Shown in pieces: positions 1,322 through 27,820 of a stretch of 34,781 bases of DNA. The first letter of the stretch is position 1; each line of letters begins with the position of its first letter. The notes beneath the pieces were generated by a model. That model was not told the origin of the DNA. It was given only the letters and a program-made list of their open reading frames with translations, and ran no database searches. The position numbers and the translations under genes were made by a program. This DNA is from a virus: the IMG/VR virus record IMGVR_UViG_3300042907_000860, positions 1-34,781 of that record; one strand, written 5' to 3'.

Positions 1322-1813
1322 TTACTCAGCCTCCACAATAGGCTCGGGCTCGAGCTCGAGCTCAGGAGCGGGTTCGGGGGCTGGCGGCGCCGGCGGGTTG
1401 CGGAGGGCGTACAGGTCAATCACTGCCTGCGACGCGCCATCCACGACGGCCTGAGCTTCCGCACGCTCTGCGGCGTCCTGGGCCTTCTCCTCGTCGGTTG
1501 CGTCCTCGGGGGGGAGCGGCTGGGCGAGACGCTTCATGGCTGTCTCGTAGGCCATGGTGTCGAGAAGGAGCGCCATGTCGGCGCGGGCGGCAACACCGGC
1601 AGCTTGGGCAGCGTCAACGACCACTTTGAAGCGGGCCATCTCGGCCAGGTCGGCGTCCGTCGGGGTGTACTGGTTCAACGAGATCCCAGCGACCTTGCGG
1701 TTGAGGATGGTCTCGGCTTCGAGCGAGAACTCGGTGCGGACCATGGCTTCTGTGCGCCGAGTGATGTCTGCATCGGGCCAGATGTCGTTAGCCATCAGGT
1801 TGATGAAGCTCAT
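1322..1813 (-). CDS. Hypothetical virion-operon protein with acidic Pro/Glu tail
   Basis: A 163-residue protein I do not recognise. The N-terminal 80 residues look like a mixed helical domain; residues from about 100 form an acidic Ala/Glu helix (DEEKAQDAAERAEAQ), and the last 25 are a Pro/Glu repeat (PAPPAPEPAPELELEPEP). It starts with ATGA overlapping the tail-fibre stop and is followed 4 bases later by the amidase start. Position directly downstream of a giant fibre suggests a fibre-assembly or attachment role, but this is inference from position only. No membrane segment is visible, so it does not look like a holin. Confidence 0.7.
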   Translation of the reverse strand: MSFINLMANDIWPDADITRRTEAMVRTEFSLEAETILNRKVAGISLNQYTPTDADLAEMARFKVVVDAAQAAGVAARADMALLLDTMAYETAMKRLAQPLPPEDATDEEKAQDAAERAEAQAVVDGASQAVIDLYALRNPPAPPAPEPAPELELEPEPIVEAE

Positions 1814-4800
1814 GATGCGATCCTCTGTGCCTGAATTTGGACCCAGGCCGTGACGCCGGGGGCGGCGGCGAAGCGGATGGTTTCGAGGAAGCCGTCATAG
1901 AGGCGGGTGTAGTCCTTGGTGCTGCCCTCCTGCTTGACTGCACCCGCAGACATCACGGTCTTGGCCTCCATGCCTGCCGGGAGAATGAAGTCGAAGAAGG
2001 AGATCGACAGCGTGGACGTCGTTGCGGTTGCAGCGGCGGAGATGTAGATCGTGGTGCCAGACACCGCGACGATGGTTGCGTTTGTCGGGATGCCGGTGCC
2101 AGAGATGCGGGCACCGATGTAGCTGGTCGGGTAGGTCAGGCCAGCGACACTGGCGATGGTGGTCGAGCCAGTGGTGATGTTTCCCGTGAAACCGCCCACG
2201 TAGTCGTAGGTTGCCAGTTCCTTCCCAAGGCGGGAAGCTGCCTCGGAGCGGCGAACGAGTTCCTCGCGGAGCCCGTAGGCCGGGATCGAGACATCGACGC
2301 CGGGGTTGGTGGTGATGCGGGAGTTGAGTTCAACGCCAGAGTTAGCGACGACCCTGGTGTAGGTGCCAGCCGGGACCGCAACGACGTTGTTACGTACTAA
2401 TCCAGTCCAGTAGCTCTCGTTGGTGCCAGACACCGCGACCCAGCGGTCGGTAGCGTCATCGTAAGCCATGTCGAGAATGGAGCCGCTGTCAGGAAGCACG
2501 CTCTGTGCGCCAGCGCGGAAGAGCTGCTTCTCCTGCTCGTACATGAACTGCGCCTGCTCCGTGGTCGGAACCGTTGCGCCCAACTTGAGGAGCGCGATGG
2601 AGCCGGGGAACGGAGCGTCGAGGGCGTAGGAGTTGCCGATGGTGAGAGGGGCAACATTGGTCGCCGCGTAGGCGGTCGCTGTCGAACCAGTCTCAACCTG
2701 AGCGCCCCACACAAGAACGTCAGCGGTGTTGTCGTTGGTCGGGGTCTGGCCGCCACGGAGGCCGATAGCGTAGCTGAGGTTTGAACCGGGTCCAGTTCCA
2801 GTCACTTCAAACCGCTGCCATGATCCAGTGACCGCAATCGCTGTCGTAGCGCCAGTAGGGCCAACGATGTGCATGCTATAGGTGGAGGTGCCATCGTAGG
2901 ACTTCACGTAGATACTGAAGACATGCGCAGTGGCCGGTGTGTTGACGGCCTGAATGCGGCGCGTAAAGTCAGCGGCAACTGTACCGCCGCCAAGATTGAA
3001 CTGGATGCGATCTGCGGCGGGGTTGCCGTTCGGGTCGTTGCCAGCATTTGAAGTGACTACGCAAGCGACACCAGTGCCACCGGCGGAGTTATTCCACGGA
3101 GCGAGATCAAAACTCTCACTCTGGCTAATCATGTTCTTGCCCAGCGTCATGCTGGCAAGCGGCGTACCGCGCGTAACCGCCACCTCGCGCCCGTTGACTG
3201 TAATCGCCAAGGAGCCGTCGGTGGTGTAGCGCACGCGGGCCTTCAGCCATGTTGCGGTGTTGTATGCGGCGGTCGTGGTGACCGTGCGCGTGGTTGTGCC
3301 GTCGAAGGCTTCGGCGGTGAGGTAGCCGACCGCAGTTACTCCCAGTCGGATGCGCGGGCCAGAGGAGAACTCACGGGCTGCGATGATGGCGGGGCCGACT
3401 TCACGGACGGAGACGTTATCAATCGCGGCAGTCTGACCAACACTACCTGTCGCAAGAAAAGCGACGGTCGTTGATGTCGCTGTAGCCACAAAGATAAAAT
3501 CTCGCGTCCAAGAACCTGAAAGCGTAATCTCGGCTACGATTTGACCACTCGACGAGCCAGTAGAGTTCGTAGTGACGCGGTATCCAGATGTATCCGCCGT
3601 GATTGATCTACCACTCATTTTGACCCGATAGCTCCGGCCCACCACAGTGGAAAAGACCTGATAAGGCCTTACTCCGCCAGTTCCTATCGAAAGCAAAGCC
3701 TCACCTGACGCCCAAGTTAAGCTTGCACCCCCAAGAAGCGCCTCACTCCACCCACTCACATCGGCATCAAACGTGCCATTCGTGACTAACTCAGAACCAA
3801 CATTGGGGAAGCTGCTCACCGGCAGCGTAGCCGGAATATTCACCCACGCGGTCGCGGTGAACTCGCCAGTGCCGAAGTCCAAGTCGGCGCTGTAGGGTTC
3901 GCGGAGGTAGTTACTTGCGGAGTAACCGGAGTAGCCGACGAGCGATGTGCCGCTGGCGAGTTGGGCTTTTGTTATGGTGCCGGTGATGTTTGCGAGCGCG
4001 GCTTTGTAGGAACGATCCGGTTCAGCAATGTTAGTCACCACCACATTGTCTATAAAGATCGTGGCAGGACGAGAGGGTATGGCACAAGTAAATCGGATCG
4101 AAGTTAAGGAAGATATTGCTGTAAACGAGTATGTCAGCGTTCCATCGGCGGTAAGCGCCGTACCTACACCCAACCCAGTACCGCTACCGCCACCGCCGTC
4201 TCGGGCTTCATTGTATACACTTGTCACACCAGTGCCGAAGCGAATGCCAGAGGTCACTGTGTAACGGTAGCCGGGACGTGTCTGGAGGATCAGATAGGGG
4301 TAAGTTGATCCGCCACCAGCCGCAAACGTTACTTGCAGTTCGCCAGAAACAATAGCGAGAGAGACGTTGCCGTCTTGAATACTCCACGGAGCCGCTTCAC
4401 TGGTGCTAAAATCGCCGTTGACCAACAATCCGCTTTGGGGGGCGGTGCCAGCAGAGCTATCGCTCAGGTACGCGCGGCGAATGTCGCCGGTCATCCAGCC
4501 GGTGTTGAAGGTCGGATGAACTTCGCAGGTTAAGGCACGGACCATCGTGCCTTCGTTTTGCTTCAGCATGTTCACGCGAGTACCAGAACGACGAATGTAT
4601 TCTCCACGGGTTTTTCGCTTGAAACTGGACCCACCAAGAACACCGAAGCTGGGGCCAGCGGTGCCTGACAGCGATGTGAGCGTAAACGATGCGCCAAGAT
4701 TTCCCGGCGACAGCGCGTAGAACCAAGTACTGGAAGAGGTGTTGGATACAGCCAGAACGTACGGGTCGATGGTAATATCGTTTTGCGCCGTAGTGCTGCT

Positions 4801-7479
4801 GCTATTCACCACCGTGCCATTGTGCTTGATCACAGACACGCCGCCGCCAGTTGCCACCGCAATCGTCGGCACGCGTAGGCCAGTGGCGGGGTCGATGGGT
4901 GCGTCGGGGAGGACGGTCATGGCGACGGCGTTGATGGACGTTCCAGAAATCGTGCTAAACCCACCAACGACGTTAAAGCCAAGTGCCTCGTTCCGGCGCG
5001 CAATGTCGCCACGGAACGACCCTGAAACACCGTTGGTGAGATATGGCACGCTGTCAGCGGGGAAGTTGATTAGCGAGCCTTGGTATCCGCTGTTAGCGGT
5101 GGCTCCGGTAGCCAAAATACCGTTCAATGCGGCGATAGCAGCTTGGGTGTTGGCACCAAGAAGAGCGCGCGTTGTCGTAGTATTGTTTGCCGCGCTCGAA
5201 AGGAACCGCATCCACATGGGACGCCCAGGTTCGGTCAGGTCGTAGATGTTGACGCTGGTTGCTTCCGCCACAATAGCCGCGAGCTTCGGGAACTCGGCCT
5301 TGTTGCCACGGAAGATTTCGGAGGTGGTGCCTTCGGAGCCCTTGGGTTCGTAGGTTGTTGCAGTGGAGCCGTATTCGAGCTGAACTTTTGCATCCAAAAA
5401 TTCGGTTCCCGCCCATACCAGCGACGGGCGGTCAGGCGTGTAAGCCGCACCTGCGAGCGCCACATTCAGGCCGATTGATCCGCTTGGCCTACTGTATGAG
5501 ATTGTACAAGCGACAGAACCGTCATTTAAGGTTGCCGCACGTGCCGTTACGGATGTGGAATTTCCGATCACCGAAACAGCATCCAAATCAAAAGTAGCAG
5601 ATGAGATAGGCGAAGTCCCTCGATCACCAATCCAAATGTAACGATGACGCCCCGGCGTGTTAGGGAAAATTACCGTTAGAGAGTAACTACCGCCAGGTTG
5701 AAGCGACAGGGCGCGATCCAAATAGGCCGCAAAAGTCCCGGAACCTGCCGTTACCCTCATCCCAGACGCAGTAACGTTAGACTTCACCCACGCTACATTA
5801 TCAAACTCAGCAGAGCGTGAAAGTAAGTTCTTCCACAGCCGGTAGAACTTCCCGTCCGTGGTGAGCTGGAAGTAGTCGTTCGATGCGGTGGTGAGCGCGG
5901 TGACTTCGCGGACGGAGACGTTGTCGACTTCCCAATATTCGCCCGCAATAGCAGTAATATTTCGAATTGCAATCCAACCTGTAGTGGCCGTTGCAGTAAA
6001 GTAGAAGGAGATTGTTCCCGGTCCATTTGCAAGACTGGATGAACCCATTTGGTTCGACCCTGAAGTCGTCCCCATATACAAGGTCAAAGACCCAGTAATC
6101 GCGTCCAGAGTAACTCGCACTGACGCTAAATATGTTTTTCCGATTTCCAGCGTGACACTTCGGTATGCGTATCCAGTAGCGCCATCACTGTCAGTAATCC
6201 TCATGGCGTTGCCGGATTTGCTTACAGTACATCCGGCAGTTAGCCACCCACTAACGTCTGTATCGAAAGTGCCATTGGTGACTAATTCAGTGGCAGAAAT
6301 AGTTGAGCCAGCATTCCGCGCCTGAAACTCTGTGTCCTGCGGCCCCAGCCACTTCCCCGCCAGTGTTTCGTTGAACCAGCTCGTCTGCTGGCAACGCTTG
6401 GTCCACGCGCCGCCGTCGCTGTCCTTGGACGTGTCGTAGATCGTCATCGCCGTGATGGCGTTGGGGCTGCGGTGGAGCGCCTGGGCGGTGACGCCAGACA
6501 GATCCTGCTGCACAACGCTCGATGCGCTGGCAGCGTAGCCCTGCGCCAGGGATGCTGCGGCCTGTGCGTTCTGGGCCAGGGCGGCGACGGATGCCGCGTT
6601 GCCGAAGGTTGCCTGAATAGTTGCGGCAGAGCCAGCGGCTTCGGATGCCTTGGCGGTCGAGGTGGCGGCACCGGCAGCGGCGCCTGATGCCGACACTGCA
6701 GCGGCGGACTGGCTGGCAGCGGCAGCGGTTGCCGACGCAATAGCCGAGTTTGCCTGCGTAGAGGCCGTCGTGGCCGCATTCTGTGCCAAAGTCGCCGAGT
6801 TGGCGGCGTCGTTGGCCTTGGTTGTCGCCGTTGTCGCCGAGGTGCTGGCGTTTGTGGCTTGGGTTGTGGCCGTCGCCGCGGCGCTGGTGGCCGTCGACTG
6901 AGAGTTGGCCGCATTGGTCGCCTGAGTGCTGGCAGTCGAGGCCGACGTGCTGGCGCTCGAGGCAGATCCCACAGCCGCAGTCGCCGAGGCGTCAGCTTCA
7001 GCGGCCTTGGTCGTCGCAATGGTGGCTTGGGCAGTCGCCGTGCTTGCGCTGCCGGCGGCACTGCTTGCCGAGTTCGTGGCGTTGGTTGCCTGTGTCGTCG
7101 CGGTCGAGGCCGAGGATGACGCAGTGCTCGCACTCGCGGCCGCATTGGTGGCGCTTGTGCTGGCCTCGGAGGCCTTGGTCGTTGCCGTCGTGGCCTGGTT
7201 CGTGGCGATCGTGGCCTGAGACGTGGCCGTCGACGCCGACCCAGAAGCCGAGGAAGCCTGCGTCGTGGCCGTCGTGGCCGAGGTGCTGGCGCTCGAGGCG
7301 CTGCCGGCTGCAGCCGCGGCGCTTGCAGCGGCCGCATCCCGAAGCGTGATCATCTCCGGGTTTACATCGCCCACGTCACCCTTGACGCCTTGGGGGCCTT
7401 GCGGACCCTGCGGGCCGACGCTGACGATCTCGACGGTGTTGGTGGCCGGATTCGTTACTACGGTAACAGTGTCGGTCAA
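1810..7479 (-). CDS. Giant tail fibre / receptor-binding protein with inserted binding modules
   Basis: An 1889-residue fibre. It starts at TTG 7479, supported by GGAGG seven bases upstream and a TTGA overlap with the preceding stop. Order of parts: virion-anchoring N-terminus; a collagen-like GPQGPQGPQG at residue 22; about 300 residues of Ala/Ser/Thr heptad-like repeat (roughly 47-345), probably a trimeric coiled rod; a backbone segment with the fibre motif AMTIYDTSKDSDGGAW; then backbone beta domains, including a LamG-like part near 1195. These are interrupted by five binding modules: VTNGTFD-type at about 397-526, 1015-1153 and 1229-1361, and NLLSRSAEFD-type at 551-713 and 1448-1608. The C-terminus (about 1780-1889) is beta-rich. 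Host surface glycan binding is the likely role. The modules have lower GC than the backbone. Confidence 0.88.
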   Translation of the reverse strand: MTDTVTVVTNPATNTVEIVSVGPQGPQGPQGVKGDVGDVNPEMITLRDAAAASAAAAAGSASSASTSATTATTQASSASGSASTATSQATIATNQATTATTKASEASTSATNAAASASTASSSASTATTQATNATNSASSAAGSASTATAQATIATTKAAEADASATAAVGSASSASTSASTASTQATNAANSQSTATSAAATATTQATNASTSATTATTKANDAANSATLAQNAATTASTQANSAIASATAAAASQSAAAVSASGAAAGAATSTAKASEAAGSAATIQATFGNAASVAALAQNAQAAASLAQGYAASASSVVQQDLSGVTAQALHRSPNAITAMTIYDTSKDSDGGAWTKRCQQTSWFNETLAGKWLGPQDTEFQARNAGSTISATELVTNGTFDTDVSGWLTAGCTVSKSGNAMRITDSDGATGYAYRSVTLEIGKTYLASVRVTLDAITGSLTLYMGTTSGSNQMGSSSLANGPGTISFYFTATATTGWIAIRNITAIAGEYWEVDNVSVREVTALTTASNDYFQLTTDGKFYRLWKNLLSRSAEFDNVAWVKSNVTASGMRVTAGSGTFAAYLDRALSLQPGGSYSLTVIFPNTPGRHRYIWIGDRGTSPISSATFDLDAVSVIGNSTSVTARAATLNDGSVACTISYSRPSGSIGLNVALAGAAYTPDRPSLVWAGTEFLDAKVQLEYGSTATTYEPKGSEGTTSEIFRGNKAEFPKLAAIVAEATSVNIYDLTEPGRPMWMRFLSSAANNTTTTRALLGANTQAAIAALNGILATGATANSGYQGSLINFPADSVPYLTNGVSGSFRGDIARRNEALGFNVVGGFSTISGTSINAVAMTVLPDAPIDPATGLRVPTIAVATGGGVSVIKHNGTVVNSSSTTAQNDITIDPYVLAVSNTSSSTWFYALSPGNLGASFTLTSLSGTAGPSFGVLGGSSFKRKTRGEYIRRSGTRVNMLKQNEGTMVRALTCEVHPTFNTGWMTGDIRRAYLSDSSAGTAPQSGLLVNGDFSTSEAAPWSIQDGNVSLAIVSGELQVTFAAGGGSTYPYLILQTRPGYRYTVTSGIRFGTGVTSVYNEARDGGGGSGTGLGVGTALTADGTLTYSFTAISSLTSIRFTCAIPSRPATIFIDNVVVTNIAEPDRSYKAALANITGTITKAQLASGTSLVGYSGYSASNYLREPYSADLDFGTGEFTATAWVNIPATLPVSSFPNVGSELVTNGTFDADVSGWSEALLGGASLTWASGEALLSIGTGGVRPYQVFSTVVGRSYRVKMSGRSITADTSGYRVTTNSTGSSSGQIVAEITLSGSWTRDFIFVATATSTTVAFLATGSVGQTAAIDNVSVREVGPAIIAAREFSSGPRIRLGVTAVGYLTAEAFDGTTTRTVTTTAAYNTATWLKARVRYTTDGSLAITVNGREVAVTRGTPLASMTLGKNMISQSESFDLAPWNNSAGGTGVACVVTSNAGNDPNGNPAADRIQFNLGGGTVAADFTRRIQAVNTPATAHVFSIYVKSYDGTSTYSMHIVGPTGATTAIAVTGSWQRFEVTGTGPGSNLSYAIGLRGGQTPTNDNTADVLVWGAQVETGSTATAYAATNVAPLTIGNSYALDAPFPGSIALLKLGATVPTTEQAQFMYEQEKQLFRAGAQSVLPDSGSILDMAYDDATDRWVAVSGTNESYWTGLVRNNVVAVPAGTYTRVVANSGVELNSRITTNPGVDVSIPAYGLREELVRRSEAASRLGKELATYDYVGGFTGNITTGSTTIASVAGLTYPTSYIGARISGTGIPTNATIVAVSGTTIYISAAATATTSTLSISFFDFILPAGMEAKTVMSAGAVKQEGSTKDYTRLYDGFLETIRFAAAPGVTAWVQIQAQRIAS
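6440..7340 (-). repeat. Degenerate Ala/Ser/Thr coding repeat of the fibre rod
   Basis: On the minus strand this stretch encodes about 300 residues of near-periodic units such as ATTQATN, ASTSATT and ATTKAND, with spacing close to seven residues. The DNA is correspondingly repetitive (GCC/GTC/GTG-rich), which produces long meaningless open frames on the opposite strand. It may allow copy-number change by recombination. Confidence 0.75.
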
Positions 7480-18551: not shown

Positions 18552-18770
18552 TTACCCGCCGACGCGCGGGGTATCGAACAGGTCCGGGCGCAGTGACCAC
18601 TTGGCGACTGCGCCTTCCGTGAAGCGGTGGATGGCGACAGCCATCGCCGCGGACGGGCGCCCCTTCTGACGGGCGTGCCAAACAGCGTTCTGCGAGTACC
18701 CGATTGCTCGCGCTAACCGGGTCTCGCTACCGGCGATGGAGATCGCCTGCCTAAACAGTTCTTGGGTCAT
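18552..18770 (-). CDS. Cro-like regulator (YdaS/Cro helix-turn-helix family)
   Basis: A 72-residue DNA-binding protein with one helix-turn-helix (SETRLARAIGYSQNAVWHARQKGRPSAAMAVAIHRFTEG) and the ending LRPDLFD that is characteristic of YdaS/Cro-type phage regulators. It is transcribed divergently from the repressor, the classic cro position, and probably turns down repressor synthesis to favour lytic growth. One operator-like repeat ends only 10 bases before its ATG, so it overlaps the ribosome-binding and promoter zone. The Shine-Dalgarno is poor. Confidence 0.85.
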   Translation of the reverse strand: MTQELFRQAISIAGSETRLARAIGYSQNAVWHARQKGRPSAAMAVAIHRFTEGAVAKWSLRPDLFDTPRVGG

Positions 18771-18780
18771 TCGACCCGAC

Positions 18781-18841
18781 TAACACACAAACGGGTTAGA
18801 AACAAGATGCGGCTCGGCATAGCCAACACACAATTGTGTGG
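18781..18841. promoter_or_regulatory. Operator region between cro and repressor
   Basis: Two 18-bp inverted repeats of the TAACACA-N4-TGTGTTA type lie in the 85-base divergent gap: 18781-18798 (7/7 and 5/7) and 18824-18841 (6/7 and 5/7). The second contains the perfect 14-bp palindrome CACACAATTGTGTG at 18827-18840. They flank the gap, one at each gene start, as expected for a switch that controls both divergent promoters. Promoter boxes are not clear by eye. Confidence 0.75.
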
Positions 18842-18855
18842 TTAGGAGTTACGGC

Positions 18856-19401
18856 ATGGGAATCGGCAGCAAGATCAAGGACGCGCGCCTCGCTCGTGGG
18901 TGGAGCACCTACGACCTGGCCCGCGCGTCTGGCGTATTCCAGTCGGCCATCCACAGGATAGAGTCGAAAGATTTATCAGTTTCTAAGCACATTCCCGCGC
19001 TTCTTTCGGCCTTAAGCATAGAAGAGCAGGCTCTACGTGTAATTGCTCTTGTGGGAGTGGTGGGTGCGGGCGCAACAATCTTACCGATGGATACCTTAGG
19101 ATACGTGGAGGCGCCTCCGGGCGTTGCAGGCCCTGAAACCGTTGCAGTTCTCATTAAAGGCGACAGCATGCTGCCAGTCTACCGCGACGGTGACATCATC
19201 TACTATGACAAGCACGAGGACCCTGCCGACCTCATCGGGCGTGACGTCGTCGCCGAGCTCGAGGACGGGCGCTGCATGCTGAAGCAGATCATGCCTGGAA
19301 CCAGGCCCGGCGTCTGGACGCTTCTGTCTCATAACGCGGGGCCAATAGTTGACGTGCCAGTAAATTGGGCAGCTCGGGTCAGATGGGTCCAGAAAAACTG
19401 A
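18856..19401 (+). CDS. Prophage repressor, LexA/CI-like with S24 peptidase domain
   Basis: A 181-residue repressor that keeps the prophage silent. The N-terminal helix-turn-helix spans about residues 3-38 (IKDARLARGWSTYDLARASGVFQSAIHRIES). A self-cleavage site Ala71-Gly72 lies in VVGAGATI, the catalytic Ser is 104 (GDSMLPVY) and the catalytic Lys is 143 (MLKQI). With all three present, RecA-stimulated self-cleavage, and hence SOS induction, is expected. The start at ATG 18856 has AGGAG seven bases before it; a GTG frame extension upstream would run into the operator palindrome. A weak CCCGA/TCGGG hairpin follows the stop. Confidence 0.92.
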   Translation: MGIGSKIKDARLARGWSTYDLARASGVFQSAIHRIESKDLSVSKHIPALLSALSIEEQALRVIALVGVVGAGATILPMDTLGYVEAPPGVAGPETVAVLIKGDSMLPVYRDGDIIYYDKHEDPADLIGRDVVAELEDGRCMLKQIMPGTRPGVWTLLSHNAGPIVDVPVNWAARVRWVQKN

Positions 19402-24721: not shown

Positions 24722-24881
24722 GAGGCCAGCCCGTTTCACGGAGGCCGAGGTGGCCCGCGTGCTGCGGGCGGCCAAGGCGTCAGGCATGACCATCGAGATC
24801 ACCCCCGACGCGATCCGGGTGGTGCCGCTCCCGTTGCAATCCACAGCCCAGGTTGACAAACGGCCGCTGCCGGTGCCCTGA
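24714..24881 (+). CDS. Small protein before the integrase, possible Xis-like factor
   Basis: A 55-residue protein starting at GTG 24714 (MSKRPARFTEAEVARVLRAA, then SGMTIEITPDAIRVVP). The pattern is familiar to me from short open frames directly upstream of integrases in alphaproteobacterial prophages. The size, basic N-terminal helix and position would suit an excisionase or directionality factor, but no typical winged-helix Xis motif is obvious. It overlaps the 58-residue gene by eight bases. Confidence 0.55.
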   Translation: MSKRPARFTEAEVARVLRAAKASGMTIEITPDAIRVVPLPLQSTAQVDKRPLPVP

Positions 24882-24888
24882 TGCCGGC

Positions 24889-25950
24889 GTGGACCGAAAA
24901 AAGAGACCCCCTTACCTCGAGACCTACAAGTCTCGTCATGGCCGGCGCATGTGGTTTTTTATGGCTACGCGCAAGGGCCAGCGCATCCGCCTGCCCGATC
25001 CCTACGGCTCGGAAGAGTTCCACGAGGCCTACCGCAAGCTCCTCGCGCAGCACCTGTCTGGCGAGCTCCAGAGCGGCCGCACGCTCGGCTGGCTGATTGA
25101 TCAGTGGCTGGCGAGCCCGCAGTGGGGCCAGACCGCCAAGGAGACGCGGAAGCAATACACCTACCAACTCAAGGAGATGCGGCGACGGGCCGGCACCGCG
25201 CCGATCGAGGACTTCACCACCGAGTCGATCGTGGCCGGCCGTGACACCCGAGCTCACAAGCCCAGCGACGCCAACAAGTACCTGCGCTGCTCCGTGGCGC
25301 TTTGGAAGTTCGCCGTCGAGCGCCAGTGGGTCAAGGAGAACCCGGCGAAGGGCGTGGAGCCGGTGCGGGTAAAGACCAAGGGGTTCCACCCCTGGACAGA
25401 GGACGAGGCTCAGGACTTCGAGGAGTGCTGGCCTGTAGGCACCCGCGAGCGGCTCGCTTTCGACCTACTCGTATTCACCGGCGTGCGCCGCTCAGACGTC
25501 GTCAGGCTGGGCCGGCAAAACACGCGCGACGACCAGATCACGATCACCACCGAGAAGAGCCGGAACAGCGGCAAGCCGGTCGAGGTCACCATCTCGATCC
25601 TGCCGCCGCTGGCGACCTCGATCGCCGCAACGCCGGTAGGTGAAAAGACTTACCTCGTGACATCCTTCGGCAAGCCATTCGTGAAGGAGGGCTTCGGCAA
25701 CTGGTTCAAGCGGGCCTGCGTGAAGGCAAAGGTGCCCGGCTCGTCCCACGGGCTCAGGAAACTGGCTGCAAAGCGCATGGCCGAGAACGGCGCCACGGAG
25801 GCCGAGCTCAATGCCGTTTTCGGCTGGGCACATGGTTCGACGGAAGCTGCCACCTACATCCGCTCGGCCAGCCGGAAGAAGCTGTCGCTGGGCAGCGTCA
25901 CCAAGATGCTGCCCCTAACCCTGCCCCTAACCGGCCCTGAAAAGGCTTAA
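24889..25950 (+). CDS. int: Tyrosine integrase
   Basis: A 353-residue site-specific recombinase that integrates and excises the phage. Parts: a short N-terminal arm-binding region (about 1-55), an SAM-like core-binding domain (about 60-160), and the catalytic domain with Arg200 (TGVRRSD), likely Lys223 (TTEKSR), His287 and Arg290 (SHGLRK), His315 (WAHGS) and Tyr323 (ATYIRS). The start is uncertain: GTG 24889 gives a natural N-terminus (MDRKKRPPYLETY), and a TTG 36 bases earlier is possible; neither has a good Shine-Dalgarno. The odd C-terminus LPLTLPLTG is encoded by two arm-type repeats. The attP core lies 24 bases after the stop. Confidence 0.93.
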   Translation: MDRKKRPPYLETYKSRHGRRMWFFMATRKGQRIRLPDPYGSEEFHEAYRKLLAQHLSGELQSGRTLGWLIDQWLASPQWGQTAKETRKQYTYQLKEMRRRAGTAPIEDFTTESIVAGRDTRAHKPSDANKYLRCSVALWKFAVERQWVKENPAKGVEPVRVKTKGFHPWTEDEAQDFEECWPVGTRERLAFDLLVFTGVRRSDVVRLGRQNTRDDQITITTEKSRNSGKPVEVTISILPPLATSIAATPVGEKTYLVTSFGKPFVKEGFGNWFKRACVKAKVPGSSHGLRKLAAKRMAENGATEAELNAVFGWAHGSTEAATYIRSASRKKLSLGSVTKMLPLTLPLTGPEKA

Positions 25951-26094
25951 AAATAAGGGGTTTTTGAAGGTAATGGTGGGCGATGAGAGACTGGCATTTT
26001 GTGCTGATTCCTAAGAGTTAGAGGGTTTTCTGCCCCTAACCTGCCACTCTCGGGCCATTGAAATCCCTCGCCGAATATTTTTTTGCCCCTAACC
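25911..26094. repeat. Four arm-type direct repeats of attP
   Basis: The 10-mer GCCCCTAACC occurs exactly at 25911-25920, 25923-25932, 26032-26041 and 26085-26094: two copies on each side of the tRNA-like core at 25974-25992. This is the arrangement of arm-type integrase binding sites around the crossover site of tyrosine-integrase phages. The left pair lies inside the integrase reading frame. Confidence 0.7.
25974..25992 (-). other. attP core identical to a tRNA 3' end
   Basis: On the minus strand these 19 bases read AGTCTCTCATCGCCCACCA: T-loop end A58-G59-T60, T-stem strand CTCTC, acceptor strand ATCGCCC, discriminator A and CCA. Upstream bases no longer form a tRNA, so this is a fragment. 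It implies integration into the 3' end of a host tRNA whose acceptor begins GGGCGAT. Confidence 0.72.
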
Positions 26095-26106: not shown

Positions 26107-26137
26107 TTGACTATGCTCACATGTGAGCATATATGAT
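26107..26137 (+). promoter_or_regulatory. Promoter of the accessory operon with a 20-bp palindromic operator
   Basis: A -35-like TTGACT (26107-26112) and a -10-like TATATG (26130-26135, spacer 17) frame the perfect 20-bp palindrome TATGCTCACATGTGAGCATA at 26112-26131. The palindrome fills the spacer, so a bound dimer would exclude RNA polymerase. It differs from the 18-bp operators of the lysogeny switch, pointing to a separate regulator. Confidence 0.7.
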
Positions 26138-26162
26138 GGTGCATCAACAAGGAGAGACGCAG

Positions 26163-26423
26163 ATGACCAACTTCACTCCCGCCCACATCCGCATCGGACG
26201 CCGCAAGTCCAAGTTTACCACCGCAGAGGCAGCTTCAGCCGCCTATCGTGCCATCATCGACGAGCAAGACTTTGGGGCCTCGGAGTCTCCCAACTGCGAT
26301 TTGCTCGACAAGAATGGCTCCCGCATTGGCTACGTCAGTTATAACGGCAGGGTGTGGTCCGGAGATTGGGATGCCGGAACGTCTGTTTGCATTTTCAACC
26401 CTTACGAAAAGCAGACGGCCTAA
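26163..26423 (+). CDS. Unknown first protein of the accessory operon
   Basis: An 86-residue protein (MTNFTPAHIRIGRRKSKFTT ... NCDLLDKNGSRIGYVSYNGRVWSGDWDAG) with a basic first third and a beta-rich second half. I do not recognise it. The start at 26163 has AAGGAG eight bases before it; an earlier ATG at 26133 lies within the -10 region and is rejected. Gene position, directly behind the palindromic operator and upstream of a methyltransferase-like gene, makes it a candidate anti-defence or host-takeover factor. This is inference only. Confidence 0.65.
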   Translation: MTNFTPAHIRIGRRKSKFTTAEAASAAYRAIIDEQDFGASESPNCDLLDKNGSRIGYVSYNGRVWSGDWDAGTSVCIFNPYEKQTA

Positions 26424-26974
26424 TGCGAATCCTTATCGCCTGTGAATATTCCGGCACCGTCCGGGACGCCTTTGCTGCACTCGGGCATGACGCATGGTCA
26501 TGTGATCTGCTTCCGACAGAACGCCCCGGTCAGCACATCCAAGACAATGTATTGAGCCACCTCCAAAATGGCTGGGACTTGATGATTGCCCACCCGCCTT
26601 GCACGCATCTCGCAGTATCGGGGGCACGCTGGTTCAAGGACAAATTACCCGAACAGGCCGAGGCACTGTCTTTTGTTAGACGCTTGTTAGACGCCCCGAT
26701 CCCGCGTATTGCCCTCGAAAACCCCATCTCGATCATCTCCAGTCGCATCCGCAAGCCACACCAGATCATCCAGCCATGGCAGTTCGGCCATGGAGAAACC
26801 AAGGCGACATGCCTATGGCTGAAGAACCTCCCCAAGCTAACGCCCACAAACATCGTCGAGGGCAGGGAAGCCCGCGTCCACAAAATGCCCCCCGGACCAG
26901 ACCGCTGGAAAGAGCGTTCGCGCACATTCACCGGCATCGCAACCGCAATGGCAACCCAATGGAGCACCCCATGA
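26423..26974 (+). CDS. Cytosine-C5 methyltransferase-like protein
   Basis: A 183-residue Rossmann-type protein. Residues 1-30 resemble the SAM-binding start of DNA cytosine methyltransferases (MRILIACEYSGTVRDAF, then GHDAWSCDLLP), and residues 58-65 hold the PPCTHLAVS motif whose Cys60 would be the catalytic nucleophile. It is much shorter than typical C5 enzymes and shows no large target-recognition domain. Such proteins are common in phages and usually annotated as DNA methyltransferases, but activity is rarely shown. It could protect phage DNA from restriction. Start ATG 26423 overlaps the preceding stop (TAATG). Confidence 0.75.
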   Translation: MRILIACEYSGTVRDAFAALGHDAWSCDLLPTERPGQHIQDNVLSHLQNGWDLMIAHPPCTHLAVSGARWFKDKLPEQAEALSFVRRLLDAPIPRIALENPISIISSRIRKPHQIIQPWQFGHGETKATCLWLKNLPKLTPTNIVEGREARVHKMPPGPDRWKERSRTFTGIATAMATQWSTP

Positions 26975-27219
26975 TCCGCGCCCTCCCCCTCCTCGCCCTG
27001 CTGGCCCTCACCGGGCCGGCAGCGGCAGGCTGCGTCGGCAGTGCCTGCGTCGACAGCGCCGGAAACGTCTTCACCGTCTCGCCGCAAGGCAACATCCTCG
27101 GGATTGACGGCCAGACCGGGCAGCAGTTCACCGGCACCCAGTTCGGCAATGGCGTGACCATCATCACGCCGACGCCGCAGGGGCTGCCGTCGCTGCCGCT
27201 GATTGGAGTAAACAAGTGA
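26971..27219 (+). CDS. Exported small protein
   Basis: An 82-residue protein with a clear signal peptide: MIRALPLLALLALTGPAAAG, then CVGSACVDSAG. Cleavage after AAA is likely; the Cys at 21 could also be a lipidation site, although the -3 position is not a typical lipobox residue. The mature part is Gly/Thr-rich with repeated GNxxG turns (GNVFTVSPQGNILGIDGQTG). Periplasmic or outer-membrane location during lysogeny would suit surface modification or exclusion. ATGA overlap with the methyltransferase-like gene. Confidence 0.65.
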   Translation: MIRALPLLALLALTGPAAAGCVGSACVDSAGNVFTVSPQGNILGIDGQTGQQFTGTQFGNGVTIITPTPQGLPSLPLIGVNK

Positions 27220-27638
27220 CCAAGAGTAAACTTGATGAAAATTCTGCTCCTTCAGACTTCCCAGATGTAATTTGGAATGTGTCTGATGAGTACATTCAAG
27301 AAAACGATTTCGAGGACTGTTTGCGCTACCTCGTTCGCAAGACCAATAAAACAATTCGGGCGCGGGCAAACAAGGACGCGTACCTTTCAATAAGAAATCA
27401 TCTAACGAGTTCAAATCTCCACCTTAAGCCGTCTATCGTGTCTGGTGTTCCGACAATCGTAGCCCACCTAAAAGTTATCAGTGACACAGGTCTCGGAGAG
27501 ACATTTAATTTTGAGCACTGCATTGGAGAGCCAGATGAGCGCGGTCCAGACGATTGGGCTGTGATGGCACAAGCTCTGATTAGAGCGGCACGAATTTGCT
27601 ATGGGAATATTGAGAAGAGCAAAGAAGTAAGCAAATGA
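27216..27638 (+). CDS. Hypothetical protein of foreign base composition
   Basis: A 140-residue soluble protein I do not recognise (MTKSKLDENSAPSDFPDVIW ... PDDWAVMAQALIRAARICYG). It starts at GTG 27216, overlapping the stop before. Its DNA is clearly AT-richer than the neighbours: 24 of 60 bases are G or C in 27241-27300 by hand count. This and its place in the accessory operon suggest recent acquisition. No enzymatic motif is seen. Confidence 0.65.
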   Translation: MTKSKLDENSAPSDFPDVIWNVSDEYIQENDFEDCLRYLVRKTNKTIRARANKDAYLSIRNHLTSSNLHLKPSIVSGVPTIVAHLKVISDTGLGETFNFEHCIGEPDERGPDDWAVMAQALIRAARICYGNIEKSKEVSK

Positions 27639-27820
27639 CCCCAAAGCAGTTTCAGACATATCTCGACAAGAACGGCCTGTCGCAGAAAAAGGCGGCCGAA
27701 CACCTCGGCGTCTCGCGCAACACCGTCGCCTATTACCTGTCGGGCAAGTGGCCGATCCCGACCGTCTTCGAGTTTGCCCTCGACGAGCTCGCGCGCAGGC
27801 TCGGCGAGGGCGATCTTTAG
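27635..27820 (+). CDS. Small XRE-type HTH regulator closing the accessory operon
   Basis: A 61-residue helix-turn-helix protein (LSQKKAAEHLGVSRNTVAYYLSGKWPIPT at residues 15-43 covers both helices), hardly longer than the DNA-binding domain. It is the last gene of the operon, coupled by ATGA. It is a good candidate for the protein that binds the palindrome at 26112-26131 and autoregulates the operon, as aca regulators do in anti-CRISPR operons. Its TAG overlaps the TAA of the convergent late gene. Confidence 0.8.
   Translation: MTPKQFQTYLDKNGLSQKKAAEHLGVSRNTVAYYLSGKWPIPTVFEFALDELARRLGEGDL

Follow-up and report, generated by a model that had tools for sequence, protein, structure and literature searches.

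The operon beside the integrase gene of this phage raises the question of whether it belongs to the anti-CRISPR/aca type, in which a small HTH protein, encoded after the cargo of its own operon, represses that operon through an inverted repeat within the core promoter, as a first-pass annotation had proposed. The window, by which we mean the whole stretch of DNA analysed, is an entire IMG/VR virus entry (34,781 bases, 62% GC overall) carrying portal, terminase, major head protein, endolysin and primase/helicase genes. It is the genome of a temperate tailed phage, and its structural genes show only distant similarity to database phages. The left end of the genome is largely taken up by an open frame of 1889 aa on the minus strand (1810-7479). 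In addition, a palindrome, CACACAATTGTGTG (18827-18840), separates the divergent Cro-like and CI-like genes and is probably the operator of the lysogeny switch.

Five co-directional genes, designated A to E, occupy positions 26163-27820 and overlap successively by 1-4 nt (Table 1), which agrees with the tight coupling reported before. The operon had been said to follow attP; it does lie after the integrase gene and after four direct CCCCTAACC repeats (25912-26094, against 0.09 expected) situated at the end of that gene and just after it, but attP itself is putative. The repeats, conserved in number and with near-identical spacing in three related contigs (L003, L004 and L005), are probable integrase arm-type sites around attP. 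Likewise, the HTH gene closes the operon here and in one relative, but not in L004 and L005, in which a further small gene lies directly downstream and overlaps the stop codon of E.

Table 1. Coordinates of the operon, its promoter elements and the lysogeny-related genes of the window
Feature	Position	Strand	Description
Divergent CI-like (S24 peptidase) and Cro-like gene pair	18552-19401		
Integrase gene	24853-25950		
-35-like hexamer TTGACT	26107-26112	+	Sequence reading; conservation in relatives
Perfect 20-bp palindrome TATGCTCACATGTGAGCATA	26112-26131	.	Proposed operator of E
-10-like region	26130-26137	+	TATATG 26130-26135 (17-nt spacer) or TATGAT 26132-26137 (19-nt spacer)
Leader with ribosome-binding site TCAACAAGGAG	26144-26154	+	Common to relatives and L042
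Gene A	26163-26423	+	86 aa; relatives in Xanthomonas phages and L042
Gene B	26423-26974	+	183 aa; phrog_757 DNA methyltransferase family, E 8e-71
Gene C	26971-27219	+	82 aa; probable exported protein; constant in 4/4 phages
Gene D	27216-27638	+	140 aa; GTG start; AT-rich orphan inserted at the C/E junction
Gene E	27635-27820	+	61 aa; Aca1-like HTH (HTH_31/HTH_3); proposed autorepressor

The promoter spacer had been described as a perfect palindrome. Specifically, TATGCTCACATGTGAGCATA is perfect over 20 bp, overlies the promoter-like core and is the longest perfect palindrome in the window, but the -10 hexamer is weak: TATATG is a poor -10 at the canonical spacing of 17 nt, TATGAT is better but stands at 19 nt, and a consensus scan with 16-18-nt spacers did not call the -10-like region. 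In the relatives, the -35 element is conserved as TTGAC (L003, L004) or reads TTGAA (L005), the -10-like hexamer is TATATC, and the four phages share an identical 18-bp core of the palindrome (26113-26130). No second copy of TATGCTCACATGTGAGCATA was found in the window, with up to 3 mismatches allowed. Of 300 simulated windows, 17 (~6%) contained a perfect palindrome of this length at some position, but of 20,000 simulated 200-bp promoter regions only 1 did. A chance palindrome is disfavoured by its promoter position, its conservation and its co-occurrence with E.

A tblastn search of E against 50,697 phage records found the best match in Pseudomonas Mu-like phages, in a gene with 43% identity over 51 residues (E 4e-5). 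In phage JBD30 this gene is gp36, that is, Aca1, and it adjoins the anti-CRISPR AcrF1. Aca1 also ranked first in the PDB, both with E alone (2e-5) and with a four-sequence profile (2.4e-7, the next protein following at 2.3e-5). The AlphaFold model of E (pLDDT 86) has four helices, and a Foldseek search with it placed Aca2, Aca1 and NE0471 on top, with weak E-values (0.016-0.025).

The profile of E matched 32 of 385 alphaproteobacterial genomes, drawn from the class of the genome that holds the distant E-like gene L015, a Hyphomicrobiales MAG. Most of the 32 carry one HTH family scoring up to 24.6 bits to Aca1, versus 28 bits for E, two values that are only roughly comparable since the target sets differ. 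These chromosomal proteins (for example L054, L055 and L059) share the HTH core of E and score nearly equally to Aca1, but they are mostly longer, no such operon was noted for them, and the motif after the recognition helix reads YYEKGERDG...IP..VRLACYAL, in contrast to YYLSGKWPIP..FAL..LA in E. A tree of 17 such HTH sequences of 60 residues leaves the position of E unplaced. The best PDB and phage match is Aca1, yet chromosomal HTH proteins score close to it, and E is better described as resembling an Aca in its feature set than as an established member of the Aca1 family. To this feature set belong the position of a small HTH gene after the cargo of the same operon and the inverted repeat within the core promoter, conserved in 4/4 phages.

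Other occurrences of E-like sequences were also inspected. Plasmid matches fell within DUF1870/DUF1456 proteins in other contexts. Near the more distant E-like genes (L015, L019-L024), no known acr gene was recognised when open reading frames and palindromes were read by eye. In L019-L022, a 37%-identical HTH gene closes a variable cluster of small genes, flanked by a large 571-aa terminase-like gene and by head protease- and capsid-looking genes, a position comparable to that of the JBD30 acr locus; the cluster of L022 contains extra small genes and that of L021 a transposase-like gene. A role of E as the main lysogeny repressor is rejected in view of the separate CI/Cro pair.

The acr promoter of JBD30, read from its record, carries TTAGGCACAATGTGCCTAA between the -35 and -10 elements, the same stretch as the reported Aca1 site (PMC9410881). 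The acrIF1-aca1 locus of JBD30 and the operon described here share a gene order in which a small HTH gene comes after the small gene(s), Aca1 being the best relative of E, and a palindrome between -35 and -10 with a common CACA...TGTG centre (PMC9410881). In JBD30, however, a single acr gene and two inverted repeats are located between head genes, whereas the present operon has five genes, one palindrome and a place beside the integrase, without an acr homologue. In addition, the operator sequences differ outside the CACA...TGTG centre, and E lacks the N-terminal 17 residues of Aca1. A second comparison is offered by acrIC7-acrIC6-aca10 of Pseudomonas citronellolis, in which a 65-aa HTH repressor follows the cargo, a single functional palindrome of 21 bp (AATACGCTCATTGAGCGTATT) overlaps -35 and -10, and the repressor has Aca2, NE0471 and Aca1 as structural neighbours, as E does (PMC9410881); unlike Aca1, Aca10 did not turn up in the sequence searches with E, and its cargo genes are Acrs by designation. 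Taken together, Aca1 as best match, a conserved operator, the JBD30 geometry and a separate CI/Cro pair make Aca-style autorepression of this accessory operon, through predicted binding of E to the palindrome, well supported.

Among the matches listed in a scan of viral contigs with E, the close relatives are L003, L004 and L005 (77-90% identity). An independent scan of 2.9 million contigs with the 16-bp core of the palindrome returned, in the matches listed, 7 contigs, including all three of these relatives. No E was found in the other four, where the core is probably due to chance or to another regulator. The 16-bp core stands immediately upstream of a gene that begins ATGAACGCTCCGTTC in L006 (at 984), L010 (at 2107) and L012 (at 5417), unrelated viral contigs that are near-identical to each other and in which no E-like gene was found.

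In L003-L005, the palindrome is placed identically relative to the -35, the -10 and the leader, which reads CATCAACAAGGAG or CATCAACAGGGAG, while the genes behind it are different. The first gene encodes 107 aa, is unrelated to A and replaces both A and B; L004 has an additional 82-aa gene among its cargo, and D is absent from all three. C, on the other hand, is 90-91% conserved across the four phages and always lies directly before E, or before the inserted D, and purifying selection acts on E (dN 0.08-0.16, dS about 0.5). This constant frame of promoter, operator, C and E rests on four closely related phages among the matches listed, and their integrase regions are 82-99% identical in nucleotides, and shared descent accounts for part of the conservation. 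In two relatives, the promoter block is identical at 27-28 of 30 positions and the 67 bases upstream of it at 26-27 only, because there ~150 bp separate the last CCCCTAACC repeat from the promoter. This extra DNA beside a fixed promoter block ties the palindrome to the promoter and not to the presumed attP.

The cargo was also found apart from the frame. On L033, a contig fragment from a related phage that gave no match to E, the 107-aa gene of the relatives occurs elsewhere in the genome at 89% identity, behind a different promoter without the palindrome. In L042, A (88% identity; 84% in nucleotides) is followed by an extra small gene and by the start of B (91% of nucleotides identical in the visible part, the locus ending within B with no regulator in view), again behind a different promoter, which has an inverted repeat of its own, TTGCAGATTTCTGCAA. 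The leader TCAACAAGGAG is the probable seam at which cargo is exchanged. Since the palindrome is kept with E and C while the cargo is swapped, and since the promoters of L033 and L042 differ, these comparisons indicate that the operator tracks E (and C) rather than the cargo, which moves independently.

With respect to the cargo itself, B had been called a small cytosine-methyltransferase-like protein. It matches phrog_757, annotated as DNA methyltransferase, over its full length (residues 1-181), but has no match in Pfam, NCBIfam or the PDB. Members of phrog_757 are also present in Pf, Burkholderia and Rhizobium phages; B differs in sitting inside an operon proposed to be controlled by E. Its membership of an annotated methyltransferase family makes anti-restriction by self-methylation a plausible function. 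A is a member of a small phage family also represented in Xanthomonas phages, in one of which the A-like sequence is the N-terminal part of a 294-aa protein, and its profile matched none of the 385 alphaproteobacterial genomes. In that Xanthomonas phage gene (L014:2492-3376), the A domain is fused to a part resembling, by eye, a 166-aa gene of the L019-L022 cluster, which suggests that small accessory genes may be exchanged as domains. The first gene of L003 has weak matches to Vibrio and enterobacterial phage genes of unknown function.

C is probably exported, as had been proposed, judging by eye from its signal-peptide-like N-terminus. Among the matches listed it was found only in the four phages, and searches of phage records, Pfam, NCBIfam and PHROG-type profiles gave no known relatives outside them. 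D is AT-richer, as described (GC 45%; GC3 0.43, versus 0.66-0.87 in the neighbouring genes), its predicted structure is poor (pLDDT 40), and no relatives were found in phages, plasmids or viral contigs. Its sole weak genome match lies in a stop-interrupted frame and is attributed to chance. D occupies exactly the C/E junction of the relatives, with the overlap unchanged, and together with its orphan status and AT-rich composition this makes it look like a recent insertion. A, B and D are accessory genes, not the conserved core phage genes considered as a counter-case by the first-pass annotation. PADLOC returned nothing for A, C and D, and A to D matched no known Acr family in Pfam or NCBIfam, two collections that do not hold every Acr. 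The proposed aca-type reading is supported in its regulatory half, through the Aca1 match, the operator geometry and the conservation with E. For its anti-defence half, the signs are the methyltransferase-like B and the accessory behaviour of the cargo, and no known acr neighbour was found among A to D.

We consider it reasonably likely that this temperate phage carries an accessory operon under Aca-type autorepression, with exchangeable cargo directed most likely against host defences or rival phages; the autorepression alone is, on these sequence comparisons, held with more confidence than the whole. Upon infection, the promoter would fire freely and the cargo would be made at once. E, made last, would dimerise and bind the palindrome over the -35/-10 core and, lying across the core promoter, would shut the operon down to a low level. 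Into the constant frame, cargo genes are exchanged, A-B and D in this phage and other genes in the relatives. Such cargo would most likely aid the phage in countering host defences or phage competitors, B possibly by methylating DNA (anti-restriction), C at the cell envelope, and A and D by means that the model does not specify.

A more specific form of this explanation is a true acr-aca operon, in which A and/or D and the genes replaced in the relatives would be anti-CRISPRs and E a new Aca family. We regard it as rather unlikely. The Aca1-like regulator and operator geometry and the small uncharacterised cargo speak for it, and so does the pairing of cargo with different promoters, as reported for acr and aca genes, which combine with different promoters and partners (PMC9410906). 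However, the profile databases gave no Acr match, and only 386 of 2,599 Aca-like homologues (15%) have a known or predicted Acr as neighbour (PMC9410906), which means that gene layout by itself is no proof of an acr locus. We likewise advance only tentatively that E might be the first member of a new Aca family, in phages whose hosts are probably Alphaproteobacteria, with A, D and the genes of L003-L005 as new anti-CRISPR or anti-defence proteins.

Improbable in our judgement is an operon for superinfection exclusion or lysogenic conversion, with exported C as the main product, kept low by E, and the other genes as passengers. C is the only cargo constant in the four phages, next to E or D, and its start is signal-peptide-like, but its lack of known relatives makes that function a guess, and the methyltransferase-like B and the first-position cargo would be left unexplained. 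Finally, E as a lysogeny regulator or excision factor, with the palindrome in an attP/excision complex, is very improbable: the palindrome does lie ~160 bp past the integrase gene and 17 bp past a probable arm-type repeat, but a CI and Cro-like pair exists elsewhere, the window has a single copy of the site, and in L003 and L005 the palindrome is ~170 bp from the repeat, so that its distance to the arm-type repeats varies, but its placement with respect to the -35, the -10 and the ribosome-binding site is constant.

In conclusion, Aca-type regulators are a proven handle for the discovery of anti-CRISPRs by guilt by association. As an Aca1-like putative repressor ends this operon, its uncharacterised genes are good candidates for action against bacterial defences, and the conserved operator with swapped cargo yields a short list of small anti-defence candidates: A, D, the 107-aa gene of L003-L005, the 82-aa gene of L004 and the small gene between A and B in L042. 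The locus, probably a new example of an accessory locus under Aca-like control with candidate anti-defence genes, is useful as a source of such candidates and provides a clear comparison, with operator and proposed repressor travelling together, apart from the cargo.
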